Shown: positions 23,827 through 55,177 of the stretch, piece by piece
How positions within the stretch are numbered: position 1 is the first letter of the stretch
How the letters are laid out: every line of letters starts with the position of its first letter
Assembly: GCF_035917275.1 (NCBI RefSeq)
Contig: NZ_CP108509.1
Span: forward strand, 1,240,001 to 1,304,000
DNA length: 64,000 nt
DNA from: Streptomyces sp. NBC_01237
GTDB taxonomy: Bacteria > Actinomycetota > Actinomycetes > Streptomycetales > Streptomycetaceae
Reading direction: 5' to 3'
Program-made: the position numbers and the translations under genes
The notes under the pieces: generated by a model
Seen by the model: the letters and a program-made list of their open reading frames with translations, nothing else
What the model was told of the DNA's origin: nothing
Databases searched by the model: none

Positions 23827-23869
23827 GAGCCGCCTTCGGGATTCGAACCCGGGACCAACGCATTACGAG
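23827..23869 (-). other. 3' fragment of tRNA-Thr(CGT): probable attachment site of an integrated island
   Basis: Read on the minus strand, 43 bases run from the anticodon loop (CTCGTAATGCG) through the T-arm (GGTTCGAATCCC) to the 3' acceptor GGCGGCTC. This agrees with my memory of the Streptomyces tRNA-Thr(CGT) 3' half apart from about two bases. Upstream of the anticodon the match stops abruptly: TCAGT stands where ACGCA must be, so no anticodon stem, D-arm or 5' acceptor can form. Such a 3' half is the classic duplicated core left by tyrosine-integrase elements. Orientation puts the chromosome at lower coordinates (with the tRNA terminator) and the element, ending in the complete tRNA, at higher coordinates beyond this window. 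Confidence 0.75.
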
Positions 23870-23928
23870 ACTGAAAGCGTTCATGTCATGCGGTGCCGCG
23901 CGATGCCACCACATGACGTTTTCCCTGA

Positions 23929-24318
23929 TCAGAGCATGTGTGCTGGTCTTTCCCGTGGTGCCTCGTACTGCCCCGTCACGGGAACGACCTTGGCGAGGGC
24001 CTCGGCCAGCGAGGAACCTCGCCCTTCTGCTTCTGCCCGACGCACCATCCTCGGGCAGAGCTCGCGCACCATGGCGCCGCACGACCCCGAAGGCGTGACG
24101 ATGGCGTCGTAGTCGGCGAAGACGTCGGCAAACCGGTGAGCGAGCAGTCCGGCCTTGCGCCGGTAGCCGGTGTTGTAGTGCGGCTGACCGCAACAGGTCT
24201 GTCCGAGCGGGAAGTCGACGTCGACGCCGAGCCGGTTCAGCAGTCGCACCACACGGCGCGGCCTGTGCCCGGGGTGGAGCGTGTCGTTGACACAGGTGAG
24301 GAAGAGAACGACACGCAT
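23929..24318 (-). pseudogene. lutA: N-terminal half of LutA-like lactate-oxidation subunit
   Basis: 129 codons that match the first half of LutA/YkgE (about 245 residues): VVLFLTCVNDTLHPG, then the first CCG iron-sulfur-associated motif GQTCCGQPHYNTGY, and PSGSCGAMVRELCPRM. The match stops near LAKVVPV, and the last 15 codons are unrelated. The second CCG domain is missing and no lutB or lutC is present. The island end at 23827-23869 lies about 60 bp beyond the stop, so truncation coincides with the boundary. In intact clusters LutABC oxidises the L-lactate formed by RhaD from lactaldehyde, which explains its place behind rhaIDB. Here it should be non-functional. Confidence 0.8.
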
Positions 24319-24402
24319 CGCGGCCCTTCGGTTCGGGTGGCAGGGCTCCGGATGGGCGCGGTGTCAGGTTCCGCGCCCATCCGGAGGTTCGGGCGTCCGG
24401 TC

Positions 24403-25854
24403 TCAGCCGGAGATCCGCCGGGCAGCGGCATCCCAGGCCGCTCGGTCGCCGGACGGTTCGTAGCGGTGCAGCGGCTGGCTGTCCGCCACCTGCTGCCGCA
24501 TCTGGGGGACGTCGCCGACCAGGCCGAGTGCGCGGGCCTGGACGAGTACGTTGCCCAGGGCGGCGGCTTCCACCGGGCCTGCGACGACGGGCAGTCCGGA
24601 CGCGTCGGCGGTGAGTTGGCACAGCAGCCTGTTGCGGGCGGCGCCGCCCACCATGTGGATGATGTCGACGTGGCGGCCGGAGAGCTCCTGTGCCTGCTCG
24701 ATCGCGCGCCGGTGGGCCAGCGCGAGGGAATCGAGGATGCACCGCGTGATCTGCCCGCGCGTGACCGGCTCGGGCTGTCCTGTGGCCGAACACGCTTGTG
24801 CGATGCGTCGCGGCATCAGGCCCGGTGCGAGAAAGGCCGTGTCGGAAGCGTCGATCACCGACCGCAGCCCCTTTACCGAGGCGGCCTCCCGCAGCAGTCC
24901 CACCACATCGTCATCACCCCAGTCGCGCATGCATTCCTGGAGCAGCCACAAGCCCATGACGTTGCGCAGGTATCGCACGGTGCCGTCGATACCGGCTTCG
25001 TTGGTGAAGTTGGCCAGCCGGCTGGCTTCGGTCAGCACGGGTGACGACAGCTCCAGGCCCACGAGTGACCAGGTGCCGGTGCAGATGTAGGCGAAGTGGT
25101 CCTTGCGGCCGGCGGGCACCGCGGCGACAGCGGAGGCGGTGTCGTGGGACGCGACCGTGGTGACCGGTACCTGCCGCTGCAAGTCCAGTTGCTGGAGCAC
25201 GTCCGGCAGCAGGGTGCCGGCCTTGTCGCCGGGGGCGCGCAGTGGGGCGAACAGGCTCAGGTCGATGCCGAGAGGGCGGGCGATGTCCTCGGCCCAGGTT
25301 CCGGTGCTCGCGTCGAGAAGCTGGGTGGTCGAGGCATTGGTGACTTCTGTGCCCTGCTCGCCGGTCAGCCAGTAGGTGATCAAGTCAGGGATCAACAGCA
25401 GTCCTGAGGCGATCGACGCCTGTGCTGTGCGCTGGGCGGCGACGAGCTGGTAGAGGGTGTTGAACGGGGCGTGCTGGATACCGGTGCGGGCGTACAACTG
25501 CTCGGCGGGGACGGTCTGCCAGACCTGCTCCGGGACGTTGTCCGTGCGCGTGTCGCGGTAGTGGACGGGAGCGGAGAGCAGGTGGCCGTCGGCGTCGAGG
25601 AGTCCGTAGTCCACGGCCCAGCTGTCGATGCCCACGCTGTCGACTTCCCCGGCTGCTTTCAGTCCGTCGAGGACCCCCGTGTAGAGGGCGTGGATGTCCC
25701 AGCGCAAGCCTTCGGGCAGACGGACAGGGCGGTTCGCGAACCGGTGGATCTCGGTGAGGTCGACTCGGCCGGCGGTGACGCGACCGGTGATGACGCGGCC
25801 GCTGCTGGCGCCGAGGTCGACGGCGGCGAGGACCGCGCTGTCGGGTGTGCTCAT
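24403..25854 (-). CDS. rhaB: L-rhamnulokinase
   Basis: A 483-residue FGGY-family sugar kinase that phosphorylates L-rhamnulose to rhamnulose 1-phosphate. The N-terminal ATPase fold begins AAVDLGASSGRV; GIDSWAVDYGLLD is the rhamnulokinase signature; CTGTWSLVG binds adenosine and phosphate, and VGGAARNRLLCQLTADA is the C-terminal glycine motif. The start overlaps the stop of rhaD (ATGA), so the two are coupled. It is the last intact gene of the minus-strand rhaI-rhaD-rhaB operon; an 84-bp gap separates it from the lutA remnant. Confidence 0.93.
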   Translation of the reverse strand: MSTPDSAVLAAVDLGASSGRVITGRVTAGRVDLTEIHRFANRPVRLPEGLRWDIHALYTGVLDGLKAAGEVDSVGIDSWAVDYGLLDADGHLLSAPVHYRDTRTDNVPEQVWQTVPAEQLYARTGIQHAPFNTLYQLVAAQRTAQASIASGLLLIPDLITYWLTGEQGTEVTNASTTQLLDASTGTWAEDIARPLGIDLSLFAPLRAPGDKAGTLLPDVLQQLDLQRQVPVTTVASHDTASAVAAVPAGRKDHFAYICTGTWSLVGLELSSPVLTEASRLANFTNEAGIDGTVRYLRNVMGLWLLQECMRDWGDDDVVGLLREAASVKGLRSVIDASDTAFLAPGLMPRRIAQACSATGQPEPVTRGQITRCILDSLALAHRRAIEQAQELSGRHVDIIHMVGGAARNRLLCQLTADASGLPVVAGPVEAAALGNVLVQARALGLVGDVPQMRQQVADSQPLHRYEPSGDRAAWDAAARRISG

Positions 25855-27893
25855 CGAAGGAAGGCCGGGGCGACACCCGCGTCGACGGGGATGTGCAGAC
25901 CGGTGGTGTGGGTGAGGTCGCCCGCGGTGAGGGCGAAGACCGCGTTCGCCACGTGCTCGGGCAGGACTTCCCGCTTAAGCAGGGTCCGCCGGGCGTAGAA
26001 CTCGCCGAGCTTGTCCTCCTCGATGCCGTAGGTGGCTGCCCGCTGGGCGCCCCACCCACCGGCGAATATCCCCGAACCACGGACGACGCCGTCGGGGTTG
26101 ACTCCGTTGACGCGGATGCCGTGCTGGCCCAGCTCGGCCGCGAGAAGGCGCACCTGGTGGGCCTGGTCTGCCTTGGTGGCGGAGTAGGCGATGTTGTTCG
26201 GGCCGGCGAAGACGGCGTTCTTCGAGACGATGTAGACGATGTCGCCGCCGAGGCCCTGCTCGATCATGAGCCGGGCTGCTTCGCGGGAGACGAGAAAGGA
26301 GCCGCGGGCCATGATGTCGTGCTGCAGGTCCCAGTCCTTCGCAGTGGTCTCCAGCAAGGGCTTGGAGATGGAGATGCCGGCGTTGTTGACGACCAGGTCG
26401 ACGCCTCCGAACGCGAGGACGGCCTCGCGAAACGCGGCGGCGATCTCTTCCTCGTCCGTGACGTTCATGGTGACGGCAACCGCCCGGTCCGGTCCGCCGA
26501 GTTCGTCCGCGACCGCTTCGGCGCTGTCCGCGTCGAGGTCCGCGACGATGACACAGGCGCCTTCGGCGGCGAGCCGGTGCGCGATCGCCTTCCCGATGCC
26601 GCTTCCGGCTCCGGTCACCAGGGCGACCCGGGTGGCGAGGGGCTTGGGCTCGGGCATGCGCCGCAGTTTGGCCTCCTCCAGTTCCCAGTACTCGATGCGG
26701 AACTTCTCGGACTCCTCGATCGGGGTGTAGGTGGAGACGGCCTCGGCGCCGCGCATCACGTTGATCGCGTTGACATAGAACTCTCCGGCGACCCGGCTGG
26801 TCTGCTTGTCCTTGCCGAAGGAGAACATCCCCACCCCGGGCACGAGGACGATCACCGGGTCGGCTCCGCGCATCGCGGGCGAGTCGGCGGTCGCGTGCCG
26901 CTGGTAGTAGGCCGCGTACTGCTCGCGGTAGGCCGCGTGGAGCTCCTTGAGCCGTCGTACGGTCGTCTCCAGCGGTGCGGTGGGCAGCAGGTCCAGGACC
27001 AGAGGGGCGACCTTGGTGCGCAGGAAATGGTCGGGACACGAGGTACCGAGAGCGGCGAGTCGGGGGTGCTCGGCGCGTGACACGAAGTCGAGGACGACCT
27101 CTGTGTCAGTGAAGTGTCCGACCTGAGGACGGTCCTGTGAGGCAAGGGCTCGGATGTGAGGGGCCAGGGCAGCAGCCCGCTCGTGGCGTTCCCTGACGGG
27201 GAGCGCCTGGTAGCCCTCGATCACCGGCCCGAAGGGCTCGGGTCGGCCACGGTCGGCGAGGAAGGCTTCGGCGGTGCGGATGATGCGCAGGGAGTTGTTC
27301 TCGCACTCTTCGGACGTGTCGCCCCAGGCGGTGATGCCATGGCCGCCGAGAACGCAGCCGATCGCCTGCGGGTTTGCCGCCTTGACTGCGGCGATGTCCA
27401 TCCCGAGCTGGAAGCCCGGGCGGCGCCACGGCACCCAGACCACGCTGTCGCCGAAGCACTCGGCTGTCAGCTTCTCCCCGCCGGCAGCGCAGGCGAGTGC
27501 GATGCCGGAGTCGGGGTGGAGATGGTCGACGTGGGCCGCCTCCACCAGCCCGTGCATGGCGGTGTCGATGGAGGGGGCGGCGCCGGCCTTGCCGAAGGCG
27601 CAGTGGTCGAAAGCGGCAACCATCTCGTCCTCACGGTCAACGCCCGGATAGACGTCCTTCAGAGCGCGAAGCCGGTCGAGCCGGAGCACGGCGAGACCGT
27701 CTTCGGTCAGAGTTCCCAGGTCGCCGCCTGATCCCTTGACCCACAGCAGGTCGACCTCTGCACCGGTGACGGGATCAGCCCCGGCTCCCTTTGCCGACGT
27801 GTTCCCGCCGGCGTAGTTCGTGTTGCGGGCATCGGAGCCGAGGCGGTGCGAACGCTTCAGCAGATCGGAGGCGGGGCGGCGGACGGAAGACAT
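25851..27893 (-). CDS. rhaD: Bifunctional rhamnulose-1-phosphate aldolase / L-lactaldehyde dehydrogenase
   Basis: 680 residues. The N-terminal class-II aldolase domain (about 1-400) shows RNTNYAGGNTSAK, the Zn ligands in VDHLHPDSGIAL and GGHGITAWG. The C-terminal short-chain dehydrogenase domain (about 425-680) has VTGAGSGIGKAIAHRLAAEG, NNAGIS and YSATK. One chain therefore cleaves rhamnulose 1-phosphate to dihydroxyacetone phosphate and L-lactaldehyde, and oxidises the latter to L-lactate. ATG 27893 is chosen because AGAAGG sits six bases before it; an in-frame ATG two codons upstream abuts that site. It overlaps rhaB by ATGA and follows rhaI after 94 bp. Confidence 0.92.
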   Translation of the reverse strand: MSSVRRPASDLLKRSHRLGSDARNTNYAGGNTSAKGAGADPVTGAEVDLLWVKGSGGDLGTLTEDGLAVLRLDRLRALKDVYPGVDREDEMVAAFDHCAFGKAGAAPSIDTAMHGLVEAAHVDHLHPDSGIALACAAGGEKLTAECFGDSVVWVPWRRPGFQLGMDIAAVKAANPQAIGCVLGGHGITAWGDTSEECENNSLRIIRTAEAFLADRGRPEPFGPVIEGYQALPVRERHERAAALAPHIRALASQDRPQVGHFTDTEVVLDFVSRAEHPRLAALGTSCPDHFLRTKVAPLVLDLLPTAPLETTVRRLKELHAAYREQYAAYYQRHATADSPAMRGADPVIVLVPGVGMFSFGKDKQTSRVAGEFYVNAINVMRGAEAVSTYTPIEESEKFRIEYWELEEAKLRRMPEPKPLATRVALVTGAGSGIGKAIAHRLAAEGACVIVADLDADSAEAVADELGGPDRAVAVTMNVTDEEEIAAAFREAVLAFGGVDLVVNNAGISISKPLLETTAKDWDLQHDIMARGSFLVSREAARLMIEQGLGGDIVYIVSKNAVFAGPNNIAYSATKADQAHQVRLLAAELGQHGIRVNGVNPDGVVRGSGIFAGGWGAQRAATYGIEEDKLGEFYARRTLLKREVLPEHVANAVFALTAGDLTHTTGLHIPVDAGVAPAFLR

Positions 27894-27987
27894 GAGCATC
27901 CTTCTGGAACGGGCGGGAGGGCGGGGTGGGGCGGCAGCTGGGGAGTCGCGATGGGCCGAATGAACGCCGGCGCGCGAGGGCGTGGGG

Positions 27988-29157
27988 TCAGGCGCCCCAG
28001 CCGGCCTGCTCGCCACCGACTCGCTCGGTGACGGTCTTCTCGGACCAGCCGGATGCTGCGTACGCGGCGACGGGATCGGCGTTCAGGCCCGCCTCCTCGC
28101 GTACCTCACGCAGGAGCGGGCGTACATCGGTGGCGTAGGCGTCCATCAGGACGGCGTTGGCGGCGAGCACGTCTCCGGTCCGCTGAGCGGATGCGAGAGC
28201 GTCGTGGTCGACCAGGAGAGCCTTGGCCGTTGCCTCCTGCACGTTCATCACCGAGCGGATGACCGCTGGGACTTTCGCCTCGATGTTGTGGCACTGGTCG
28301 AGCATGAACGCGATCCCGGTCTCCGCCGCCAGTCCCCCGCCCCGGATCACCTCGTACATGATCCGGAAGAGCTGGAAGGGGTCGGCGGCCCCGGCCATCA
28401 GGTCGTCGTCGGCGTAGAAGCGCGAGTTGAAGTCGAAGCCCCCGAGCCGGCCCTCTCGCAGCAGCAACGCCACGATGAACTCGATGTTCGTGCCCGGCGC
28501 GTGGTGCCCGGTGTCGACGACCACTTGCGCTTTCGGGCCCAGCTTGAGGCAGTGGGCGTACGCGGTGCCCCAGTCCGGGACATCGGTGGTGTAGAACGCC
28601 GGCTCGAAGAACTTGTACTCCAGCAGGATCCGCTGATTCTCGCCGAGGCGCGCGTACACCGTGGCGAGGGACTCGGCCAGCCGCTCCTGCCGGGCGGAGA
28701 CGTCGTCCTGACCGGGGTAGTTGGTGCCGTCGGCGAACCAGAGCTTGAGGTCCGGCGAGCCGGTCACGTCCATGATGTCGACGCACGCCAGCAGGTGGTC
28801 CACGGCGCGGCGTCGCACGTGCGCATCCGGGTGGCAGACGCTGCCCAGCTTGTAGGCATCGTCCTGGAAGGTGTTGGCGTTGATGGCACCGAGCTTCAGG
28901 CCATGGTCTTCGGCGTACGCGGCCAAGGCCGCGTAGTCCTCGACCTCGTCCCAGGGGATGTGCAGCGAGACCTTAGGCGCGACACCGGTGTATGCGTGCA
29001 CCTTCGCCGCATCCTCCAGCTTCTCCCACGGCGTGCGGGGAACGCCGGGCTGGGCGAACACCTTGAAGCGAGTCCCGGAGTTCCCATAGCCCCAGGAGGG
29101 TGTCTCTATGGTCTGGGCCCTGAGCGTGGCCTTCACGGCCTCCCGCACGACAGTCAT
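27988..29157 (-). CDS. rhaI: L-rhamnose isomerase (RhaI type)
   Basis: 389 residues from the ATG at 29157 (GAGG upstream; the frame to 29274 runs into the operator and is rejected). A TIM-barrel aldose-ketose isomerase converting L-rhamnose to L-rhamnulose. Metal and proton-transfer residues are visible in LEYKFFEPAFY (Glu), VVVDTGHHAPGTNIEF (Asp, His, His) and GGFDFNSRFYADDDLM (Asp). The sequence is of the Pseudomonas/Rhizobium RhaI class rather than E. coli RhaA. It is the first gene of the operon, divergent from its LacI regulator. The C-terminal tail ends in an island-typical spacer before rhaD. Confidence 0.92.
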   Translation of the reverse strand: MTVVREAVKATLRAQTIETPSWGYGNSGTRFKVFAQPGVPRTPWEKLEDAAKVHAYTGVAPKVSLHIPWDEVEDYAALAAYAEDHGLKLGAINANTFQDDAYKLGSVCHPDAHVRRRAVDHLLACVDIMDVTGSPDLKLWFADGTNYPGQDDVSARQERLAESLATVYARLGENQRILLEYKFFEPAFYTTDVPDWGTAYAHCLKLGPKAQVVVDTGHHAPGTNIEFIVALLLREGRLGGFDFNSRFYADDDLMAGAADPFQLFRIMYEVIRGGGLAAETGIAFMLDQCHNIEAKVPAVIRSVMNVQEATAKALLVDHDALASAQRTGDVLAANAVLMDAYATDVRPLLREVREEAGLNADPVAAYAASGWSEKTVTERVGGEQAGWGA

Positions 29158-29202
29158 GGTCAACCTCGGAACCTGGGGCGCCGCGTCGACGCCATTGATG
29201 AA

Positions 29203-29219
29203 TCGTTTCATAGAAACGA
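29203..29219. promoter_or_regulatory. LacI-type operator in the rhaI promoter
   Basis: A perfect interrupted palindrome, TCGTTTC-ATA-GAAACGA, 46 bp upstream of the rhaI start in the gap shared with the divergent LacI gene. Position and symmetry make it the best candidate site for that repressor. Confidence 0.6.
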
Positions 29220-29344: not shown

Positions 29345-30352
29345 GTGGGGATCAAGGAGGTAGCACGCGAAGCAGGAGTATCCGTGGGCACGGTGTCCAA
29401 CGTCCTGAACCGGCCGGACCAGGTGTCCGAGCAGACGCGTGCACGTGTGCAGGCGGCCATCGAAATCCTCGGGTACGTCCGGAGCGAATCGGCACGTCAA
29501 CTCCGCGCGGGACGAAGCCGCATGCTGGGCTTGCTCGTGACGGACACCGGCAACCCCTTCTTCGCCGCCCTGGCACGGGGTACGGAAGAGGCGGCGGTCC
29601 GGGCCGGGCTCGGGGTGATGGTCTGCAACAGTGCCGAGAGCCAGTCCGCCGAGCAGGCCTACCTGTCGCTCTTCGCCGAGCAGCGGATGCGCGGCGTGCT
29701 GCTGGCGCCCGTCGACTCGCACGGGGCACCCTGGCACGCGCTGAGCCGCCAGAACATCCCCTTCGTCGTCGTCGACCGGGCGGTCGGCGAGAACGAGGTG
29801 TGCTCGGTGGCCGCCGACGACGTTCTTGGCGGACTGCTGGCAGGCCGGCACCTCCTGAAGGCCGGACACCGCCGCATCGCCTACGTGGGCGGCCCCGAGC
29901 AGCTGCGGCAGGTCCGTGACCGGCGGGACGGCCTCCTGCGTGCTGTGCAGGAAGCCGGCATGAGCGCCGACACCGTCGTCGATGTGCCGGTGCACCGGCA
30001 TGACGTACGAAGCGGCCGGGACGCCGGTCACCGCCTCATCGGCCTCAGCCCGCGGCCGAGCGCTGTCTTCTGCGCGAACGATCTGCTTGCCTTGGGCATC
30101 ATGCAGACCGTCTTTGACGCAGGAGTGCGGGTGCCGGATGATCTCGCGGTCATCGGGTACGACGACATCGAATTCGCCGAAGCCTGCCTCATCCCGCTGA
30201 CCTCCGTCCGCCACCCTGCTGGTGAGATCGGCCGTCTGGCCGCCGAGCTCCTCCTGAAGGAAATCGACCCGTCATCGGAGGGCCACCGGCACGAGAGCAT
30301 CGTGCTCCAGCCGGAGCTCGTAGTACGTCGCTCCACCGTTCCCAGGGCCTGA
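29345..30352 (+). CDS. LacI-family regulator of L-rhamnose catabolism
   Basis: About 335 residues. The N-terminal helix-turn-helix GIKEVAREAGVSVGTVSNVL and hinge NRPDQVSEQTRARV are followed by a type I periplasmic-binding fold (LGLLVTDTGNPFFAAL, VVDRAVGENE, AYVGGP, DDLAVIGYDDIEFAE). GTG at 29342 or 29345 begins the domain; a GAGGA lies somewhat far upstream. Transcribed divergently from rhaI across a gap with two palindromes, it most likely represses the rhaIDB operon and itself until L-rhamnose or a metabolite binds. It converges on the aromatic operon with a strong shared terminator. Confidence 0.88.
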   Translation: MGIKEVAREAGVSVGTVSNVLNRPDQVSEQTRARVQAAIEILGYVRSESARQLRAGRSRMLGLLVTDTGNPFFAALARGTEEAAVRAGLGVMVCNSAESQSAEQAYLSLFAEQRMRGVLLAPVDSHGAPWHALSRQNIPFVVVDRAVGENEVCSVAADDVLGGLLAGRHLLKAGHRRIAYVGGPEQLRQVRDRRDGLLRAVQEAGMSADTVVDVPVHRHDVRSGRDAGHRLIGLSPRPSAVFCANDLLALGIMQTVFDAGVRVPDDLAVIGYDDIEFAEACLIPLTSVRHPAGEIGRLAAELLLKEIDPSSEGHRHESIVLQPELVVRRSTVPRA

Positions 30353-30447: not shown

Positions 30448-31311
30448 TCAGCTGCGGCGGTCTCCCGGCCGGGACGCGTAGGAGGTGGCCTGGGAGCCGT
30501 CGACGGACACCTCAAGCCGTCCGATGCTTTCGATCTCCACGACGACGCGGTCCCCGTGGGCGAGCGGGCCGACCCCGGCCGGCGTGCCCGTCGCGATCAC
30601 GTCGCCCGGGTACAGAGTCATCACCGAGGAGGCGTAGGCGATCAGTTCACGGACTCCGAATATGAGGTCGGCGGTGTTGGTGCGCTGCCGGGTCTCCCCC
30701 GCCACGTCGCAGCGCAGATGGAGCCGGCCGGGATCGGGAATGCCGTCGGCGGTGACCACCCACGGCCCGATGGGGGTGAAGGTGTCGAAGGACTTACGGG
30801 TGGACCGGTCCTCACCGGACCTGACGGTGATGTCGAGCAGGCAGGTGTAGCCGAAGACGTGGTCCAGCGCGTCCTCGGCGCTCACTCGCGACGCGGTGCG
30901 GCCGATGACGACGCCCAGCTCGCCTTCCTGGTCGGTGCGCTGGTCGGAGTAGGGCAGGACGATGGCCTGACCGGGGCCGATCACCGATGAGTTGGCTTTC
31001 AGGAAGACGCCCAGGTCGGCGATGGACGTGGGGTAGTCCATCTCGGCCTTGTGATCGAGGTAGTTGACCGGGGCACCGATGATCTTTCCGGGGCGGGGCA
31101 GTGGCGCTTCGAGCGTCACCTCCGACAGCGGCGCCCGGCGGCCGCGTGATGGCACCAGTACCGGGCCGGTTCCCTCGGCCAGCGTCTCGATGTAGTGGTG
31201 GAGTGCACCGGCCGCGCCGGTGGAGGGAGAACCGGCCTGGTCGGTCACGTCGATGATCGTGTCGCCGTCGACGACACCGAGCCGTCCCTGGTTGAAAAGG
31301 GCCAGACGCAT
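30448..31311 (-). CDS. FAH-family hydrolase next to gentisate dioxygenase (fumaryl/maleylpyruvate hydrolase-like)
   Basis: 287 residues with the fumarylacetoacetase fold: GAPVNYLDHKAEM, the metal ligands in EGELGVVIG, and the C-terminal GDVIATGTPAGVG. Together with the adjoining gentisate 1,2-dioxygenase it would split the ring-cleavage product to pyruvate plus fumarate or maleate. No maleylpyruvate isomerase gene lies in the window, so it may hydrolyse maleylpyruvate directly or rely on an isomerase elsewhere. It is the last gene of the 12-gene minus-strand operon. The family also contains isomerases and decarboxylases, so the exact reaction is an inference from context. Confidence 0.78.
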   Translation of the reverse strand: MRLALFNQGRLGVVDGDTIIDVTDQAGSPSTGAAGALHHYIETLAEGTGPVLVPSRGRRAPLSEVTLEAPLPRPGKIIGAPVNYLDHKAEMDYPTSIADLGVFLKANSSVIGPGQAIVLPYSDQRTDQEGELGVVIGRTASRVSAEDALDHVFGYTCLLDITVRSGEDRSTRKSFDTFTPIGPWVVTADGIPDPGRLHLRCDVAGETRQRTNTADLIFGVRELIAYASSVMTLYPGDVIATGTPAGVGPLAHGDRVVVEIESIGRLEVSVDGSQATSYASRPGDRRS

Positions 31312-33754: not shown

Positions 33755-34405
33755 TCAGCAGGCGGCAGCCGCGCTGTCGATGTGCACGGGTGCACCGGTG
33801 TGGGCGCGGATGTCTTCGACGGTGACACCGGGCGCGGTCTCCACCAGGACCAGACCGCGGTCGGTGACGTCCAGGACGCCGAGATCGGTGATGATCCGGC
33901 CGACGCAGAGGCGGCCGGTCAGCGGCAGGGTGCAGTCCTGGACGATCTTCGCAGAGCCGTCCTTGGCGGTGTGCTCCATCAGCGCGATGACTCGGCGTGC
34001 GCCGTGGACGAGGTCCATGGCTCCACCCATGCCCTTGACCATCTTGCCGGGGACCATCCAGTTCGCCAGGTCGCCTCGGTGCGAGACCTGCATGGCTCCC
34101 AGTACGGCGGTGTCGATGTGACCGCCGCGGATCATCCCGAACGACAGGGCCGAGTCGAAGAAGGACGCGCCCGGAAGGACGGTGACGGTCTCCTTGCCCG
34201 CGTTGATCAGATCGGAGTCGATCTCGTCCTCGGTGGGGTAGGGGCCTGTGCCGAGGATGCCGTTCTCCGAGTGCAGCACGACGTGCACACCGGCTGGTAC
34301 GAATGCCGGGATGAGGGTGGGCAGACCGATGCCGAGATTGACGTACGAGCCGTCGGTCAGCTCGTTGGCGGCCCGCGCGGCCATCTGGTTGCGGTTCCAG
34401 GCCAT
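33755..34405 (-). CDS. 3-oxoacid CoA-transferase, subunit B
   Basis: 216 residues of the family I CoA-transferase beta chain. The catalytic glutamate is in SENGILGTG, preceded by [30 protein letters not shown] and [15 protein letters not shown] follow. It moves CoA from succinyl-CoA to a 3-oxo acid, most often 3-oxoadipate or acetoacetate. The start touches the stop of subunit A (TGATG), as expected for a heteromer made in equal amounts. Its presence says that at least one branch of this pathway ends in a beta-keto acid. Confidence 0.88.
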
Positions 34406-46317: not shown

Positions 46318-46327
46318 AGAACGTTCT
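46318..46327. promoter_or_regulatory. LacI-type operator AGAACGTTCT
   Basis: A perfect 10-bp palindrome with the central CG typical of LacI-family operators, about 90 bp before the start of the binding-protein gene and 42 bp from the centre of the other palindrome. It is the best candidate for the site of the divergent repressor. Confidence 0.6.
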
Positions 46328-47819: not shown

Positions 47820-48704
47820 ATGCACCGCGTACTCGGTGACCGCAGAGCGATCATGATCCTGCTCGGTCCCGCACTCCTCGTGTACACCCTGATCATGCTC
47901 GTCCCCACGGTGTGGTCGCTCGGGTACTCCTTCACCAAGGGCAACTCCATCGACGGCTTCACCGGCAACGGTCTGGCCAACTTCACCAGGCTCCTCTCCG
48001 ACCAAGCCGTCCACGACGCCCTCTGGTTCACCGTGAAGTACGCGGTCCTCGTCACCGTCGGGCAGGTCATCGCCGGCTACCTCCTGGCCCTGCTCTACGT
48101 CTTCTTCCTCAAGAAGGCGTCCGCGCTCATCCGCACCCTGGTCTTCTTCCCGGTCGTCCTGCCCACCGTCGCCGTCGGCCTGCTCTTCCAGAAGTTCTTC
48201 CAGGTCGCCCCACAGACCGGACCCGTCAACTCCCTGCTCAACACCTTCGGCTTGGAGTCCATAGACTTCTTCGGCAGCGCGGGAAGCGCCTTCTGGGTGC
48301 TGGTCAGCATGGACATCTGGCGCTCCATGGGCTTCTACGCCGTACTCCTGTTCGCCGGCCTCGTCGACATCCCCGACGAGGTCCTCGAATCAGCCCGCCT
48401 CGACGGCGCTTCCGGCCTTCGCCTCATCCGCCATATCGTCCTGCCGCTCTCCCTGCCGGTCCTCATGTCCTCCTTGATCTTCAGCATCAACGGCACTCTC
48501 AAAGTCTTCGACTCCGTCGTCGCCCTCACCAACGGCGGCCCCGGAAGCGGCACCACCCCGCTGACCCTGTACATGTTCCAAACGTCGTTCACCTACAGCG
48601 AGTACGGCTACGGCAGCACCATCGCGCTGCTCCTCACCGTCGTCTGCCTTCTGGTGAGCCTGGCGGTCTACCGCGTCTCGCGACGCGACATCACGGAGGG
48701 CTGA
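47820..48704 (+). CDS. ABC sugar transporter permease (MalF-like)
   Basis: 294 residues with six hydrophobic helices: the first is AIMILLGPALLVYTLIMLVP. The cytoplasmic coupling loop EAA-type motif reads ESARLDGASGLRLIRHIVLP. It forms the membrane channel together with the following permease. No ATPase gene is in this operon; in Streptomyces many such importers share the multi-purpose ATPase MsiK, encoded elsewhere. The stop lies 5 bp before the next start. Confidence 0.9.
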   Translation: MHRVLGDRRAIMILLGPALLVYTLIMLVPTVWSLGYSFTKGNSIDGFTGNGLANFTRLLSDQAVHDALWFTVKYAVLVTVGQVIAGYLLALLYVFFLKKASALIRTLVFFPVVLPTVAVGLLFQKFFQVAPQTGPVNSLLNTFGLESIDFFGSAGSAFWVLVSMDIWRSMGFYAVLLFAGLVDIPDEVLESARLDGASGLRLIRHIVLPLSLPVLMSSLIFSINGTLKVFDSVVALTNGGPGSGTTPLTLYMFQTSFTYSEYGYGSTIALLLTVVCLLVSLAVYRVSRRDITEG

Positions 48705-48709: not shown

Positions 48710-49612
48710 ATGGCCATCGAAACTCCCCTCAAGCCCGCCTCTCCCGGACAAGGGCGCACCAGGCACCAGAAACGCAATCCCGTCCGCAAGTCGGGCGGCC
48801 GTCTCTGGATCAAGATCGCCGTAACCTTCCTGCTGGTCATCGAGGTCTACCCGCTGATCTGGATGTTCCTCACATCGCTGAAGTCCAACAGCGACTACCT
48901 CAACAACTCCACCTGGAGCCTTCCCACCACCTGGGAGTGGGGCAACTACACCGAAGCCTGGACCACAGGGAACATAGGTCTCTATGTCCAGAACAGTCTG
49001 CTGGCCGTCGTCCCCGCCCTGGCCCTCATCCTGCTTCTTGGCACCGCGGCCGGATTCGCCCTGCAGATCATGGTCTGGAAGGGCCGAAGCCTGACCCTCC
49101 TGGTCTTTCTCGCAGGAATGATGGTCCCGCCGCAGATGATCCTGCTGCCCCTGTTCACCGTCTATTTCCAGGCCGGCCTCTCCGGAACCTTGTGGCCGCT
49201 CATCCTTACCTACACGGGCACGGGCCTCCCGTTGACCGTATTCATGATGGCCACCTATTACCGAACCGTGCCCCGAGAGCTCTTCGAAGCGGCGACTCTG
49301 GACGGTGCCGGGATCTTGCGTGCTTTCTGGACCATCAGCGTGCCGATGGTCCGCAACGCACTGCTCACGGTCGGGCTGGTGCAGTTCTTCTTCATCTGGA
49401 ACGACCTCCTCATCGCCCTCACCTTCACCAACAGCCAGGATCTGCGCACCATTCAGGTCGGTCTGCTGAACTTCACCGGCGACTTCGGTGCCACCCAGTA
49501 CGGCCCGCTGTTCGCAGCCATCTGCATCAACGTGTTCGGCACACTCGTGATCTACCTGTTCCTCAACCAGAAGGTCATGAAGGGCCTCACCTCAGGAGCG
49601 GTCAAGGGCTGA
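48710..49612 (+). CDS. ABC sugar transporter permease (MalG-like)
   Basis: 300 residues from the ATG at 48710. An N-terminal basic stretch precedes six hydrophobic helices; the EAA-type coupling loop is EAATLDGAGILRAFWTISVP. It pairs with the MalF-like permease. Codons run in step with the upstream gene at a distance of 5 bp, so both are co-translated. The gene is followed 44 bp later by the alpha-rhamnosidase, tying transport to cytoplasmic hydrolysis of the imported sugar. Confidence 0.9.
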   Translation: MAIETPLKPASPGQGRTRHQKRNPVRKSGGRLWIKIAVTFLLVIEVYPLIWMFLTSLKSNSDYLNNSTWSLPTTWEWGNYTEAWTTGNIGLYVQNSLLAVVPALALILLLGTAAGFALQIMVWKGRSLTLLVFLAGMMVPPQMILLPLFTVYFQAGLSGTLWPLILTYTGTGLPLTVFMMATYYRTVPRELFEAATLDGAGILRAFWTISVPMVRNALLTVGLVQFFFIWNDLLIALTFTNSQDLRTIQVGLLNFTGDFGATQYGPLFAAICINVFGTLVIYLFLNQKVMKGLTSGAVKG

Positions 49613-49656: not shown

Positions 49657-52245
49657 TTGCAGTCCCTCCAGCCTTCCCCGGTGCGCTTCGAGCATCTGCC
49701 GGACGGCCTCGGCATCGGAACCAGCACCCCCCGCCTGTCCTGGACCTCCCCGCCCGAAGCCGGGGACCAGCATGCCTACGAAGTCGAGCTTCGCCGCGAC
49801 GACCGACTCCACCGCACGGGCCGTATCACCGCACCCGACCACCTGCTCGTACCTTGGCCCGACGAACCACTCAGCTCACGCGAGCGTGTTGCCGTGCGCG
49901 TGCGCACCTGGTCGACAGAAGGCGGCGCGCCCTCGCCGTGGAGTCGGCCCGCGGTCGTCGAGGCCGGCCTGTTCGAGCCGGGTGACTGGACCGCTCTCCC
50001 CGTCGGTGCCGCCTGGCAGGAGGACCCTGCAGCCGAACGCCGCCCGGCCCGCGTCCGTAAGCACTTCCGAGCGGACGACAAGCCGGTCGAGCGCGCCCGG
50101 CTCTACATCACCGCCCATGGTCTGTACGAGGCGGAGATCAACGGGACCCGAGTCGGTGACGAGACCCTGGCACCCGGCTGGACCGTCTATCAACATCGTC
50201 TGCGCTACCGCACCTACGACGTCACCTCCCTCCTCGCCTGCGGCACCAACACCATCGGTGCCTGGCTCGCGGACGGCTGGTACCGCGGCAAGTACGGCTT
50301 CGACGGCGGCACACGCAACATCTACGGCACCGACCAGTCCCTCATAGCCCAACTCGAGATCACCTACACCGACGGAACCAGCACGGTGGTCGCCACCGAC
50401 CACACCTGGCACGCCGCCTTCGGCCCCATCCTGACCAGCGGCCTGTACGAAGGCGAGACGTTCGATGCCCGGCTGGACGACCCGCACTGGGCCACTCCGA
50501 GCGCGCCCCAGGACAACTGGACACCCGTACGCGTCGGAAGCCGAGACCCCAGGACACTGGTCGCGCCCGAAGGTCCCCCGGTCCGGTGCACCCAGGAAAT
50601 CGCTCCTGTGTCCGTCACCCGCACCTCCGACGGCCGGCACCTGATCGACTTCGGGCAGAACCTGGTGGGCCGTCTACGGATCACCGCGGAGGGGCCGGCC
50701 GGCGCCACCCTCATCTTCCGGCACGCAGAGGTCCTCCAGAACGGAGAACTCGCCACCCTCCCCCTGCGCGAAGCACACTCCACGGACATCCTCGTCCTGC
50801 CGGGCAACGGTCCCTATACGTGGGAACCTCGCTTCACCCTCCACGGCTTTCGCTATGCAGAGATAAGGGGCTGGACCGGCGAGCTCGCCCCGCATGCCGT
50901 GACCGCGCGCGTCCACCACACGGACATGCGTCGCACGGGCTGGTTCGAGTGCAGCGATCCCCTGGTCAACCGCCTCCACGAGAACGTCCTGTGGAGCATG
51001 CGAGGCAACTTCGTCGACATCCCGACCGACTGCCCTCAGCGCGATGAGCGCCTTGGCTGGACCGGAGACATCCAGGTCTTCACCCCCACCGCGAGCTTCC
51101 TCTACGACTGCGCCGGCATGCTCAACTCCTGGCTCACCGACGTGGGCAGGGAACAGCTGCCGGATGGCACCATCCCCTGGTACGTGCCGGTCATCCCCGG
51201 CAATGCGATGTGGACCCCGATCCAACCGGGGGCCGCCTGGGGAGACGTCGCCACCCTCACTCCCTGGGCCCTGTACCAGCGCTTCGGTGATCTCGAACTT
51301 CTACGGCGTCACTACCCCATGGCCAAGGCGTGGGTCGACCTCGTCGAGAAGCTCGCCGGCCCCGAGCGACTCTGGGACACCGGGTTCCAACTAGGGGACT
51401 GGCTCGACCCGGCCGCCCCACCGGATGACCCCGCCGCCGGCCGCACCGACCGCCACCTCGTCGCCACCGCCTACTTCGCAAACTCCACCCGGCACCTCGC
51501 CCGTGCCGCCCAAGCGCTGGGTCGTACAGGCGAAACAGATCGGTACGACACACTCGCCGACGAAGTCACCACGGCGTTCCGACGACGCTACGCCCAACCC
51601 GACGGCCGCCTGTCGAGCGACAGCCCCACCGCGTACGCCATCGCCATCGTGTTCAACCTTCTTGAGACCCCACAGCGTGTAGTGGCAGGCGACCGTCTTG
51701 CCGAACTCGTCCGCCAGGACGACGCGCGCATCGCCACAGGCTTCGTCGGGACCCCTCTCATCTGCGACGCACTGACGGATACCGGCCACCTCGACAGCGC
51801 CTACCGTCTGCTTCTGCAGACCGAATGCCCGTCGTGGCTCTACCCCGTCACCATGGGCGCCACCACCATCTGGGAACGCTGGGACAGTCTCCGCCCGGAC
51901 GGAACCCTCAACCCAGGCGGCATGACTTCCTTCAATCACTACGCTCTCGGTGCGGTCGCCGACTGGCTCCACCGAGTCGTCGGAGGCATCGAGGTCACAG
52001 CGCCGGGCGCTGCCACACTTGCCTTCCGACCCCGCCCCGGCGGCGGCATCACGTGGGCCCGCACCCGCCATGAGACGCCCCACGGAACCGCCGCGATCTC
52101 CTGGCAAACCACTCCGGCCGGCATCAAGGCCCAGATCACCGTGCCCCCGAACTGCACAGCACTCGCCGAGCTGCCGGGCTACGCAGCCCAAACTCTCGGC
52201 CCCGGCACACACATATTTCCTCAAGAAAATCGCAGAATCGACTGA
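49657..52245 (+). CDS. Alpha-L-rhamnosidase (GH78)
   Basis: 862 residues from the TTG at 49657 (AAAGG nine bases upstream; a GTG at 49681 is also in frame, and longer frames reach into the permease gene). N-terminal beta-sandwich domains carry SGLYEGETFDARLDD and FGQNLVGRLRI; the (alpha/alpha)6 barrel holds the general acid Glu464 in CPQRDERLGWTGDIQ and the base Glu740 in GATTIWERWD. No signal peptide, so it works in the cytoplasm on imported rhamnosides, releasing L-rhamnose for rhaI. Length and motifs are normal for GH78. It is the last gene of the ABC operon. Confidence 0.93.
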   Translation: MQSLQPSPVRFEHLPDGLGIGTSTPRLSWTSPPEAGDQHAYEVELRRDDRLHRTGRITAPDHLLVPWPDEPLSSRERVAVRVRTWSTEGGAPSPWSRPAVVEAGLFEPGDWTALPVGAAWQEDPAAERRPARVRKHFRADDKPVERARLYITAHGLYEAEINGTRVGDETLAPGWTVYQHRLRYRTYDVTSLLACGTNTIGAWLADGWYRGKYGFDGGTRNIYGTDQSLIAQLEITYTDGTSTVVATDHTWHAAFGPILTSGLYEGETFDARLDDPHWATPSAPQDNWTPVRVGSRDPRTLVAPEGPPVRCTQEIAPVSVTRTSDGRHLIDFGQNLVGRLRITAEGPAGATLIFRHAEVLQNGELATLPLREAHSTDILVLPGNGPYTWEPRFTLHGFRYAEIRGWTGELAPHAVTARVHHTDMRRTGWFECSDPLVNRLHENVLWSMRGNFVDIPTDCPQRDERLGWTGDIQVFTPTASFLYDCAGMLNSWLTDVGREQLPDGTIPWYVPVIPGNAMWTPIQPGAAWGDVATLTPWALYQRFGDLELLRRHYPMAKAWVDLVEKLAGPERLWDTGFQLGDWLDPAAPPDDPAAGRTDRHLVATAYFANSTRHLARAAQALGRTGETDRYDTLADEVTTAFRRRYAQPDGRLSSDSPTAYAIAIVFNLLETPQRVVAGDRLAELVRQDDARIATGFVGTPLICDALTDTGHLDSAYRLLLQTECPSWLYPVTMGATTIWERWDSLRPDGTLNPGGMTSFNHYALGAVADWLHRVVGGIEVTAPGAATLAFRPRPGGGITWARTRHETPHGTAAISWQTTPAGIKAQITVPPNCTALAELPGYAAQTLGPGTHIFPQENRRID

Positions 52246-52279
52246 GCAGGCGCCGCAAAAGTCCCAAATACCCTCGCTC

Positions 52280-52314: not shown

Positions 52315-52605
52315 TTGCGTGCCTTGAAAGGTCACCTGCATCCATGAGGCGGATGGCCGTCATCTAAATTTCGTATGGATGCTTCACTAAATCGTCAGCC
52401 ATGCAGTGGAGAAATTCATCACCCTGCCGAAATTTTGAGCATCCGTGCAGATCAGGGGCAGCTCAGCGAATTCACGGCGCCTGAGGGGTTGACCAGAAAC
52501 ACTGAGAGCCATAACTTTCCGAATCACGCAAGGCGCTCAACCGTCGAGCCCTTGAAAAGTCCTCGGTAAGGGTCGCGGGACGCACAAACCCGCCCAGGAC
52601 AGTAA

Positions 52606-52640
52606 TTCGGATAAATCCGAACCGGCGAATTATCCGCCGG
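52606..52640 (+). promoter_or_regulatory. Two adjacent inverted repeats before the GH3 gene
   Basis: TTCGGAT-AA-ATCCGAA (52606-52621) is directly followed by CCGGCG-N7-CGCCGG (52622-52640), 60 bp before the GH3 start. The first is operator-like, the second hairpin-like; they suggest that the GH3 gene has its own promoter and control within the 454-bp gap after the rhamnosidase. Confidence 0.5.
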
Positions 52641-52699
52641 ATGGCAACACCGACGTCGACGGGTCCCCACCCCGCCGCCCCACTCCTCGGAGAGCCGCC

Positions 52700-55177
52700 G
52701 TGAACCGACGCACCTTCCTGTCCTCCGCCATCGCCACCGCACTCGCCGTCACCATGGTCCCCACCGCCAACGGTCAGGCCATCGCCGCGACTGATCCCCG
52801 CGCCTTCGACCGCGCCGACGCTCTTCTCGCCCGGATGTCCGCTGCCGACAAGGACGCCCTCATCCGGTGCGACTTCGCCGCCCTCAGCCACCTCGGTATC
52901 CCCGCCCTCACCATGGTCGACGCCTCCGCCGGACTGCGTGGCGAACAGAACGTCACCGCGTTCCCCGTACCCCTCGCCCAGGCCGCCACCTTCGACGAGG
53001 ACCTCACGCGCCGCATCGGGGCCGCCATCGGCACCGAGGGACGCGCCAAGGGGTACAACAGCCTCCTCGGGCCGACCATCGATCTGACGCGGACCTGGCA
53101 CTTCGGGCGCCAGGCCGAGAGCCTGGGAGAAGACCCGTTCCTCGCGGGCCGCCTCGGCGCCGCCCTCACCACCGGCATGCAGAGCCGTCAGGTCACGGCC
53201 ACGGTCAAGCACTTCGCGGCCTACACCCAGGAAGTGAACCGCTTCTTCAGCGACACCCTGGTGTCCGACCGCGCGATGCACGAGATCTACCAAGCGCCCT
53301 TCCGCCGCGTCATCGCCGCCGCGCCCACCACCTCGGTCATGATGGCCTATCCCAAGATCAACGGGACCTTCGCCACCCAGAGCCCCACCCTCTTCAACGA
53401 CGTCAAGTCCCGCCTCGGCCTCCAGGGTTACACCGTCCCTGACTTCTGGGCCGGCGACGACCAGGTAGCCGCCGCCAAGGCCGGCATGGACCTCGCAGGG
53501 CTCGGCCCCGGCGGCGTCAAGCTCGCACCCGGTGAGCTCACCCGCAGCGTGTCCACCGCACGGCTCGACGACGCCGCGCGCCGCATCCTCGTCACCATGT
53601 TCGCCAACGGCCTCGTGGACAACCCGGTCCCGGCACCGGCTCAAGACGTCAGCACCGCCGAACACAAGAGCCTCGCCCACGAAGCAGCCCTCGCCTCCAC
53701 CGTGCTGCTGGCCAACCGTTCCTCAGCCCTGCCTCTGCCCACCAGGCTCAGGTCGCTCGCCGTCATCGGGCCCGCCGGAACCGACGCGCTCACCGGCGTC
53801 GCCGGCTCCACCTACGTCGACCCCGGCACCTGGACCACTCCCCTGCAGGCCATCAAGGCCCGTGCCGGCAGCGGCATCACCGTCACACACGCCCAAGGCA
53901 CCACCGGCGACGTCCCCCTCAGCACCGTTCCCTCCGGCGTGCTGCGCACCACCACCGGTAAGGTCCCCGGCCTCACCGGCCGCTACTACGCCTCCCCCGA
54001 GCCCACCGGCACACCGGTCGTCACCCGCACCGACAGCGTCATCGACTTCACCAGCACTCCGGTCGACACCCTTCCCGCAATCTGGTCCGCGACCTGGTCA
54101 GGCACGCTGACCCCGACGCACAACGGCCTGCACCGCTTCTCCCTCCTGGCCGCGGGCACCGCCACCCTGAAGATCAACGGCGTCACCGTGGTCACCGGAT
54201 CCCGTGGCACACGGCGCTTCTTCCTCGGCACTTACGACTATCCCCTCCAGGGCACCATCGACCTGGCCGCGGGCAGAACCGTGTCCCTCGAACTCACCTA
54301 CAGCAACGCCACCGCCGACCCCGGCACCAGCGGCCTCACCCTCGGCTGGCAGCCCGGCTCCCTGATACCGGCCGCCGTCCAGGCCGCCACCAAGGCCGAG
54401 GCCGCCGTCGTCTTCGTCAACCGCATCGCCGGCGAAGCCATGGACCACGAACAGCTCGCCCTCCCCGCAGACCAGAACCAGCTCATCACCGCCGTCGCCG
54501 CCGCGAACTCCCGCACCATCGTCGTCCTGAACACGGACGGCCCCGTCGCGATGCCCTGGCTGAACGACGTCGAGGCCGTCATCCAGACCTGGTACGGAGG
54601 CCGCGGCATGGGCACCGCCCTCGCGGCCGTCCTGTTCGGCGACAGCGACCCCTCGGGCAGGCTGCCCATCACCTTCCCCGCCGACGCCTCCCAAGGCCCC
54701 GGCACCACGGCGGCGACGTACCCGGGCAAGAACGGCACCGTCTCCTACGACGAGGGAACCGCCATCGGCTACCGCTACTACGACGCCAAGGGGCAGCAGC
54801 CCCACTTCCCCTTCGGGCACGGCCTCTCCTACACGACCTTCGCCCACGGCTCCCCCGAAGCCTCCTACAGCGCCGCCAGCAGGATCGTGACTCTCTCCGT
54901 CACCGTCACCAACAGCGGTAGCCGCCCGGGCACCGAGGTCGTCCAGGTCTACGCCACCCTCCCCACGGCCGCGGCCGCCGAGGCGCGCCGACTCGTCGCT
55001 TTCCGTAAGACGACTCTCGCTCCCGGAGCCAGCCGGCGTCTCACCTTCACCATCTCCACCGACGACCTCACTGTCTGGACGTCCGGAACGTGGGCCCTGG
55101 TCCCCGGCCTCTACACCTTCGCAACGGCACGCAACGCCCGAGCCGTCACCGCGCAGAGGAGCCTCACCATCGGCTGA
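52700..55177 (+). CDS. Secreted GH3 beta-glycosidase with PA14 domain
   Basis: 825 residues. The N-terminus NRRTFLSSAIATALAVTMVP is a Tat-type signal peptide, so the enzyme is exported folded. The GH3 N-terminal barrel has a nucleophile candidate Asp248 in GYTVPDFWAGDD; a PA14-like insertion (about residues 415-550, GLTGRYYASPEPTGTP) sits in the C-terminal sandwich domain, as in beta-glucosidases that act on aryl or large substrates. The acid/base candidate is Glu579 in AGEAMDHEQLALP, and a fibronectin-III-like domain ends the protein. It probably removes glucose or another beta-linked sugar outside the cell, working beside the cytoplasmic alpha-rhamnosidase. Confidence 0.88.
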   Translation: MNRRTFLSSAIATALAVTMVPTANGQAIAATDPRAFDRADALLARMSAADKDALIRCDFAALSHLGIPALTMVDASAGLRGEQNVTAFPVPLAQAATFDEDLTRRIGAAIGTEGRAKGYNSLLGPTIDLTRTWHFGRQAESLGEDPFLAGRLGAALTTGMQSRQVTATVKHFAAYTQEVNRFFSDTLVSDRAMHEIYQAPFRRVIAAAPTTSVMMAYPKINGTFATQSPTLFNDVKSRLGLQGYTVPDFWAGDDQVAAAKAGMDLAGLGPGGVKLAPGELTRSVSTARLDDAARRILVTMFANGLVDNPVPAPAQDVSTAEHKSLAHEAALASTVLLANRSSALPLPTRLRSLAVIGPAGTDALTGVAGSTYVDPGTWTTPLQAIKARAGSGITVTHAQGTTGDVPLSTVPSGVLRTTTGKVPGLTGRYYASPEPTGTPVVTRTDSVIDFTSTPVDTLPAIWSATWSGTLTPTHNGLHRFSLLAAGTATLKINGVTVVTGSRGTRRFFLGTYDYPLQGTIDLAAGRTVSLELTYSNATADPGTSGLTLGWQPGSLIPAAVQAATKAEAAVVFVNRIAGEAMDHEQLALPADQNQLITAVAAANSRTIVVLNTDGPVAMPWLNDVEAVIQTWYGGRGMGTALAAVLFGDSDPSGRLPITFPADASQGPGTTAATYPGKNGTVSYDEGTAIGYRYYDAKGQQPHFPFGHGLSYTTFAHGSPEASYSAASRIVTLSVTVTNSGSRPGTEVVQVYATLPTAAAAEARRLVAFRKTTLAPGASRRLTFTISTDDLTVWTSGTWALVPGLYTFATARNARAVTAQRSLTIG

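Follow-up and report, generated by a model that had tools for sequence, protein, structure and literature searches.

A modular Streptomyces gene island that may degrade rhamnosylated aromatic glycosides

Plant phenolics reach soil largely as glycosides, and the catabolism of their sugars and that of their rings have mostly been studied separately. On the sugar side, an actinomycete L-rhamnose regulon with the bifunctional enzyme RhaEW, the LacI-type regulator RhaR and uptake of rhamnose oligosaccharides is described in one study (PMC3870299), and another suggests naringin or rutin as possible substrates of a Streptomyces rhamnosidase (PMC8749437). On the ring side, excerpted accounts of the fde genes of Herbaspirillum seropedicae SmR1 attribute naringenin degradation to an FAD hydroxylase and a ring-cleaving dioxygenase (PMC8552027, PMC11069340), with FdeE acting alongside the Rieske protein FdeD (PMC8552027); the ifc genes for isoflavone degradation in Variovorax V35 are outlined as encoding an FAD hydroxylase, a dioxygenase of the glyoxalase fold and a hydrolase that probably cleaves C-C bonds, and in both ifc and fde such a flavin hydroxylase and glyoxalase-fold dioxygenase open the A ring (PMC11069340). 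Here we describe an island in Streptomyces sp. NBC_01237 (genome size 10.19 Mb) in which a sugar half and an aromatic half lie side by side within a stretch of 64,000 nucleotides of contig NZ_CP108509.1 (G000:C2:1240001-1304000, hereafter the window).

The island spans 24.4-55.2 kb of the window and holds rhamnose catabolic genes (rhaIDB), a 12-gene aromatic operon with a LysR regulator, an MFS transporter, LacI regulators, an ABC importer, a GH78 rhamnosidase and a GH3 glycosidase. Gene calls together with Pfam and NCBIfam searches of the island proteins, to which curated equivalog cutoffs were applied, agree with an initial annotation that had placed three modules here: rhaIDB, the aromatic operon, and importer with GH78 and GH3. 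These modules exist, are conserved and travel together, and we read the whole as a modular island that would serve to catabolise rhamnosylated aromatic glycosides, with a probability of roughly 0.58.

The joining of the rhamnoside and aromatic halves is well supported by co-occurrence, shuffled gene order, a tree of the core and, in relatives of one genus, shared operators; the reading of the initial annotation is supported in part. We surveyed 394 Streptomycetaceae genomes with ortholog cutoffs of at least 83% for the core extradiol dioxygenase (VOC), at least 68% for the sugar-binding lipoprotein of the importer (SBP) and at least 83% for the dioxygenase of the gentisate block (GDO), and found VOC in 75, SBP in 19 and GDO in 15. 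SBP coincides with VOC in 18 of 19 genomes (p 3e-13), GDO with VOC in 14 of 15 (p 4e-10), and GDO with SBP in 13 of 15 (p 4e-18), by Fisher p values that ignore relatedness. SBP lies at most 15 kb from core VOC in 13 of the 18 genomes, and GDO at most 22 kb from VOC in 11 of the 14. Contig borders end the loci of G108 and G145, where SBP and GDO are 11-12 kb apart; in G275 and G284 the genes are split over different contigs; and the SBP of G337 and the GDO of G188 lie more than 1 Mb from VOC.

Gene maps show the modules, with GH3 among them, arranged in at least four different ways. The order of the window, rhaIDB-gentisate-core-MFS-importer-GH78-GH3, recurs in G024 and, without a LacI1 match, in G352; G390 has it minus rhaIDB, and G226 additionally lacks MFS. 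Other relatives are reshuffled: importer-GH78-core-GH3-gentisate (G250), rhaIDB-importer-GH78-core-GH3-gentisate (G129), core-GH78/importer-rhaI-rhaD-gentisate-GH3 (G185), and importer-rhaI-rhaD-rhaB-gentisate-GH3 in G108 and G145, whose core lies on a separate contig. Without the gentisate block we found core-importer-GH78-GH3 (G278) and importer-GH78-GH3-core (G387). Such retention of content under a reshuffled order is hard to explain without joint selection. The initial annotation would have given up its proposal had the rhamnose modules been absent from all related loci; they recur in relatives.

On a FastTree phylogeny of the six concatenated core proteins from 93 loci, to which five linked and ten other rows had been added by hand, the rhamnoside label (21 of 93 rows) changes 14 times, at least ten of them on starred branches, although some zero labels may be misses because the nearest loci show only about 10 kb per side. 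None of 500 label shuffles came as low as 14 changes (mean 19.2). The gentisate label, borne by 16 rows, changes nine times, and 15 of these rows are also labelled for the rhamnoside module, L111 being the exception.

Two operator-like palindromes occur in the island, TGAATCGTTTCA before rhaI (29199..29210) and AGAACGTTCT between LacI2, the regulator of the importer module, and SBP (46318..46327), each the sole perfect match in the window. About 116 kb of intergenic DNA, in 23 stretches of 21 genomes, holds eight perfect copies of the rhaI palindrome TGAAWCGWTTCA, seven of them before rhaI, in all seven stretches that have this gene, and one between GH3 and the hydroxylase gene of the gentisate block, 3HB6H (G129). 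Perfect intergenic copies of AGAACGTTCT number nine, seven between LacI2 and SBP and two between 3HB6H and GH3 (G108, G145); with at most one mismatch there are 26, distributed as 20 between LacI2 and SBP, three between 3HB6H and GH3 (including G185) and three elsewhere. Across the 19 stretches with SBP, the site between LacI2 and SBP is perfect in seven and has one mismatch in ten more. The relatives with copies beside GH3 are all of a single genus (g14); in them GH3, and possibly the gentisate block too, is probably under the control of the sugar regulators.

The rhamnose genes, on the minus strand, comprise an L-rhamnose isomerase, rhaI (27988..29157; TIGR02635, 646 bits against a cutoff of 531), the bifunctional rhamnulose-1-P aldolase/lactaldehyde dehydrogenase rhaD/RhaEW (25851..27899; TIGR02632, 1093 bits against 568) and the rhamnulokinase-type rhaB (24403..25854; TIGR02627, 461 bits, below its cutoff of 528). 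Divergent from rhaI on the plus strand, the LacI-family gene LacI1 (29384..30352; NCBIfam LacI-family matches) probably regulates rhaIDB. At the other end of the island LacI2 (45119..46132, minus strand; PF00356/PF13377) travels with SBP, and the plus strand carries the MFS gene (43533..44762; PF07690), SBP (46416..47726; PF01547) with a hydrophobic N-terminus, two ABC permeases (47820..48704 and 48710..49612; PF00528), the GH78 alpha-L-rhamnosidase (49681..52245) and a PA14-containing GH3 of the beta-glucosidase type (52700..55177; PF00933/PF01915/PF07691). Both glycosidases score below the cutoffs of NCBIfam models (GH78, NF041573, 739 bits against 1720; GH3, NF052330, 346 against 1300), and GH78 shows five GH78-type Pfam domains. 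N-termini, which depend on starts predicted by a gene caller trained on the window, were given a crude hydropathy look without a signal-peptide program: none that is hydrophobic was seen on GH78, which is therefore apparently intracellular, and GH3, which has one, is therefore probably secreted.

The aromatic operon runs on the minus strand from 42256 to 30448 through 12 genes, FAH1, CYC, FMO, AHS, VOC, FAH2, SDR, CoTA, CoTB, 3HB6H, GDO and FAH3, with intergenic gaps of -4 to 182 bases, and faces the divergent LysR gene (42385..43299, plus strand; Pfam). Its first gene encodes the FAH-fold hydrolase FAH1 (41258..42256) and its sixth the FAH-fold core hydrolase FAH2 (36026..36997), both with PF01557 and conserved with the core. 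Between them lie a PF04199 hydrolase, CYC (40305..41261; 5ibz, E 4e-57); a group A flavin hydroxylase of the PRK06847 family, FMO (39136..40266; NF005313, 451 bits, above cutoff); an ACMSD/LigW/LigY-type amidohydrolase, AHS (38135..39139; PF04909); and VOC (37180..38121), which is below the cutoffs of TIGR02295 and TIGR03211 and matches the structure 3b59 at E 8e-75. AHS matches ACMSD structures at E of about 1e-50 and no NCBIfam model, and carries an HxH motif, H177, H227 and D293, presumably the metal ligands. A dehydrogenase, SDR (35286..36029; PF13561), and the two subunits of a 3-oxoacid CoA-transferase, CoTA (34405..35160; TIGR02429, 249 bits) and CoTB (33755..34405; TIGR02428, 334 bits), both above cutoff, precede the gentisate block. 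The 12 genes, the divergent LysR, the FAD hydroxylase, VOC, the cyclase-type and ACMSD-like hydrolases and the three FAH-fold enzymes had all been recognised in the initial annotation, which did not name the last three genes as a gentisate block and overlooked the CoA-transferase pair.

The six core genes, FAH1 to FAH2, and LysR are conserved as one unit. Among the 80 nearest of 463 VOC relatives, seen over about 10 kb per side, 74 loci have all six at 60% or more, LysR is found in 70 of these 74, CoTA in 37 and CoTB in 39; the closest by VOC protein, at 99% (best 80 of 463), are from Streptomyces sp. man185, S. globisporus and S. cyaneofuscatus. The core order is identical in G467, of the same phylum and outside the class. 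VOC occurs at E<=1e-40 in 119 of the 394 Streptomycetaceae genomes and at 83% identity or more in 75, three of these partial; in a phylum-wide sample of 396 genomes six have it at E<=1e-90, two of them outside the family. The core is present in part in L228, L229 and L231. The operon as a whole is not a single ancestral unit, as relatives diverge at the module borders CoTB|3HB6H and SDR|CoTA.

One cluster on a Novosphingobium plasmid (EMRT-2) holds relatives of VOC (47%), FMO (36%), FAH1 (44%), AHS (45%) and FAH2 (29%), and about 12 kb of Corynebacterium occultum hold a VOC relative (67%), an FAH gene, an acetoacetate-CoA ligase and an acyltransferase. The ligase parallels the CoA-transferase of the island and thereby hints at a 3-oxoacid end product; with the ligase beside VOC and FAH there and the CoA-transferase here, an orcinol/acetoacetate-type route is conceivable.

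Several further searches concerned the core. L077-L083 and L086 are arranged differently, with VOC-FAH1 and FMO-AHS-CYC on opposite strands (41-69% identity to the window), and some genomes with this second architecture also hold the first. On plasmid NZ_CP104318 of Streptomyces angustmyceticus (L222), FMO and VOC relatives lie beside a type I polyketide synthase and genes resembling those of styrene monooxygenase, which hints at a further use of the pair in a different context. We rejected FAH1 as an L-2,4-diketo-3-deoxyrhamnonate hydrolase, its top solved structure, because it scores 170 against a cutoff of 500 and the FAH1 cluster is present in 118 of 140 core loci. Neither H11, where an acetoacetate-CoA ligase overlies the VOC match with no other annotated core gene nearby, nor the CYC relatives of Rhodococcus DK17 and Rhizobium CIAT894, which lack the rest of the core, were accepted as core loci. 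A protein search with FMO returned, among the best 120 of 4865 matches, near copies with generic names and nothing else.

The last three genes of the operon form the gentisate block: 3HB6H, of the 3-hydroxybenzoate 6-hydroxylase type (32408..33628; PRK08163, 395.5 bits against a cutoff of 459, E 3e-118); GDO, of the gentisate 1,2-dioxygenase type (31348..32385; TIGR02272, 342.6 bits against 442.1, E 2e-102; motif HRH present); and FAH3, of the maleylpyruvate/fumarylpyruvate hydrolase type by similarity only (30448..31311; maleylpyruvate hydrolase 6jvv, E 6e-67 over residues 1-271). The closest solved structure to 3HB6H is 4bjy (E 1e-85), taken here as the enzyme of Rhodococcus jostii RHA1; in the alignment 3HB6H keeps all three counterparts of H213, Y217 and Q301 (RHA1 numbering), the presumed key residues. 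GDO matches the solved gentisate dioxygenases 2d40 (E 8e-81) and 3bu7 (E 2e-78) and belongs to a clade found in 15 genomes at 83-100% and in one at 65%, the remainder of 109 genomes being at 45% or less. As both enzymes fall below curated cutoffs and GDO has a clade of its own, their true substrate may be a relative of gentisate. In relatives the block is accompanied by MarR-like and IclR-like regulators and an MFS-like gene.

For all comparisons with fde we used a stand-in, a plasmid cluster of Massilia putida (Oxalobacteraceae) with adjoining FMO, VOC and Rieske genes; Herbaspirillum is a member of the same family. Plasmid NZ_CP019037 of M. putida (L233) carries an FMO-VOC-Rieske-SDR-FAH-alpha/beta hydrolase cluster, which looks like a plasmid-borne fde-like locus, beside a second AHS-VOC-FAH-hydroxylase operon. 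Measured against this stand-in, the likeness to fde that the initial annotation had pointed out is mixed. The window FMO is 39% identical to the Rieske-linked FMO of the stand-in and 35-39% to four sphingomonad FMOs. The window VOC reaches only 35% identity across 137 residues with the VOC of Massilia, whose long branch stands apart in the tree and is of unsure placement, and Pfam assigned a Rieske domain to none of the 20 island proteins scanned. We therefore do not count the island as an fde operon, although it may work like one.

A second version of the core in another actinobacterial family suggests how the ring product is cut. Of 206 genomes in that family, seven have VOC at E<=1e-90, in eight loci that we viewed over about 20 kb each (34 kb in G442). 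AHS and FAH1 occur together in L246 and L247, an alpha/beta hydrolase at least 50% identical to that of G442, the query, in six, and no locus has both; FMO is unmatched in L246 and L251, and CYC in L249 and L251. The G442 hydrolase is 51% identical to the copy in the M. putida cluster and 47-49% to its counterparts from two sphingomonad FMO-VOC clusters, and across 60 + 80 loci of Streptomycetaceae and kin it has a single weak match (31%, L056). This exchange suggests that AHS and FAH1 do the C-C cutting that an alpha/beta hydrolase does in fde/ifc-like clusters. In G442, a non-orthologous GDO gene (39%) lies with 3HB6H (46%) and FAH3 (60%) genes next to the core.

The left edge of the island (23815-24318) looks like an old integration or deletion point. 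A 3' remnant of tRNA-Thr(CGT) (23815..23884, minus strand) matches C1:4011624 elsewhere in this genome, which ARAGORN calls tRNA-Thr(cgt), at 93% across 55 bases. It abuts a truncated lutA-like gene (23929..24318, minus strand; 129 aa) whose longer counterpart adjoins rhaB in G352 (57% identity across 115 of 251 aa). No tRNA was called across the window, and the two genes after lutA in G352 have no match within it at E<=1e-3. Beyond the right end, two short overlapping open reading frames in different frames (55377-55719) resemble, on visual inspection, pieces of a single cupin protein, and the gene is perhaps broken.

From the similarities of its proteins, the island would work as follows. 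Outside the cell GH3 would remove an outer beta-linked sugar, the ABC importer would carry the rhamnoside inside, and intracellular GH78 would free L-rhamnose for conversion by RhaI, RhaB and RhaD to dihydroxyacetone phosphate and lactate. FMO would ortho-hydroxylate a ring of the aglycone and VOC, as an extradiol enzyme, open it; AHS, CYC, FAH1 and FAH2, as carbon-carbon and lactone hydrolases, would cut the product to pyruvate and a 3-oxoacid, which the CoA-transferase would activate. Another ring, or some of the mixed substrates, could enter as 3-hydroxybenzoate and pass through 3HB6H, GDO and FAH3. LacI1 would sense rhamnose, LacI2 the rhamnoside and LysR an aromatic intermediate.

Is there a shared substrate at all? 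The modules might instead be neighbours in an accessory region, separate operons for pectin rhamnose, hydroxybenzoates and another phenolic, all supplied by plant litter; we consider this unlikely, and several observations weigh in its favour or against a joint island. Within about 10 kb of the 74 full cores the rhamnoside module is found in 15, the gentisate block in 12, both in 11, and rhaI or rhaD in three (in six of 80 loci when genes cut at the edge are counted, L162 adding a LacI2 match). As the other 59 cores have no rhamnoside module there, the core must also serve other sources. A further 37 full cores include rhamnoside genes in three, gentisate genes in six and both in none, the labels never meeting because these loci extend just 6.5 kb on the LysR side, a cut that drops the importer in a window-type arrangement. 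The SBP module was not seen linked to the core in five of 18 genomes (G108 and G145, with their contig borders, included) and stands without one in G040, the gentisate block is alone in G188 and G259, and the loci of G083 and G209, with distant SBP relatives (54-55%), have GH78 and permeases and no core that we could see. Each block has its own regulator. The operators between 3HB6H and GH3 are confined to the four g14 relatives, not of the window's genus, and may serve GH3 alone; scanning the window for perfect operator copies near GH3 or the gentisate genes gave none. In the other family the gentisate block is near the core in one of eight loci. An account by separate operons does not sit well, however, with modules that recur in at least four orders, a rhamnoside label that changes 14 times on the tree, the near-exclusive co-occurrence of GDO with SBP and the operators shared in g14. 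A distant parallel comes from the clover-derived Rhizobium brockwellii (NZ_CP053440, L227), where GH3 and a sugar ABC importer adjoin AHS-VOC-hydroxylase-FAH; with VOC and AHS both 34% identical to the window's, this appears to be a second, independent joining of sugar and aromatic genes.

If the island does serve rhamnosylated aromatics, the nature of the aglycone is the next question. We tentatively propose that actinobacteria have a system devoted to rhamnosylated phenolics with two rings. One ring would be opened by the widespread six-enzyme extradiol pathway FAH1-CYC-FMO-AHS-VOC-FAH2, in which another family has an alpha/beta hydrolase of the fde/ifc type in place of the C-C cutting part; a specialised gentisate block would take up the other as 3-hydroxybenzoate; and in some species the repressors for rhamnose and the rhamnoside would also act on aromatic genes. 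We think this somewhat improbable as a complete statement. That the substrate is a flavanone, flavone or flavonol glycoside (naringin, rutin, hesperidin), its A ring 8-hydroxylated and meta-cleaved as by fde and ifc, is rather doubtful. It would draw on the 39% FMO identity to the M. putida cluster, on the core of the other family (VOC, with FMO, FAH2 and CYC in most loci), where a hydrolase resembling that of Massilia replaces AHS and FAH1, and on the use of such a hydroxylase and glyoxalase-fold dioxygenase by ifc and fde (PMC11069340). The short VOC match, the lack of a Rieske domain among the scanned proteins and the scarcity of rhamnosidases near the core speak against it. So does general chemistry: the gentisate block suits 3-hydroxybenzoate, whereas the B rings of naringin, rutin and hesperidin, the three glycosides mentioned in the initial annotation, carry 4-hydroxy or 3,4-dihydroxy substitution. 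Rhamnosides of anthranoids, xanthones or benzophenones are another candidate class of substrate, for which ring cleavage would leave a 3-hydroxybenzoyl or 3-hydroxyphthalate unit to be decarboxylated or released as 3-hydroxybenzoate for 3HB6H-GDO-FAH3. The residues that 3HB6H shares with the Rhodococcus enzyme, the co-occurrence of gentisate and core modules, the gentisate genes, with a non-orthologous GDO, beside the G442 core, and the membership of AHS in a decarboxylase/C-C hydrolase family are consistent with such substrates. No island enzyme is diagnostic for them, however, their pathway chemistry is conjectural, and in the other family gentisate genes are seldom near the core and 3HB6H of that kind is carried by two of seven VOC genomes at all; we regard them as the least probable of these options.

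Searches of an open literature library, judged by titles and abstract openings, gave no account of this core or of the joined island among the matches listed. If our reading of a catabolic island for rhamnosylated aromatic glycosides is correct, such a transferable island would offer a testable route by which Streptomyces could feed on, or disarm, plant defence glycosides. The core VOC occurs in about one fifth of the sampled Streptomycetaceae (75 of 394, at 83% or more) and has 463 relatives in one scan, and knowing its substrate would annotate hundreds of loci.

The island thus combines features of several known systems. Like the actinomycete rhamnose regulon, it has rhamnose catabolism with a bifunctional RhaEW, a LacI regulator and rhamnose-oligosaccharide uptake; RhaI and RhaEW pass the equivalog scores, RhaB is below its cutoff, and TGAAWCGWTTCA before rhaI is a predicted LacI-type operator palindrome. 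It differs in its aromatic genes; the main text of that paper has no match for aromatic or flavonoid (PMC3870299). GH78 domains, a sugar ABC importer and a LacI regulator, conserved as a module, place it with GH78 rhamnoside utilisation loci. In grouping 3HB6H, a gentisate dioxygenase and an FAH-fold hydrolase in one block it resembles the 3-hydroxybenzoate/gentisate pathway, from which it is set apart by the missed equivalog cutoffs of GDO and 3HB6H and the separate GDO clade. With ifc it appears to have in common, as general enzyme types, an FAD hydroxylase, a dioxygenase of the glyoxalase fold and a hydrolase that probably cleaves C-C bonds; ifc has an alpha/beta hydrolase and cupins where the island has AHS, CYC and two core FAH proteins. 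The likeness to fde would lie in the general pairing of an FAD hydroxylase, 39% identical to an fde-like Massilia enzyme, with a ring-cleaving dioxygenase; in contrast to fde, the 20 island proteins scanned include no Rieske protein, VOC belongs to another branch than that of the stand-in, and the island adds AHS, CYC, a gentisate block and a coupling to rhamnoside uptake.

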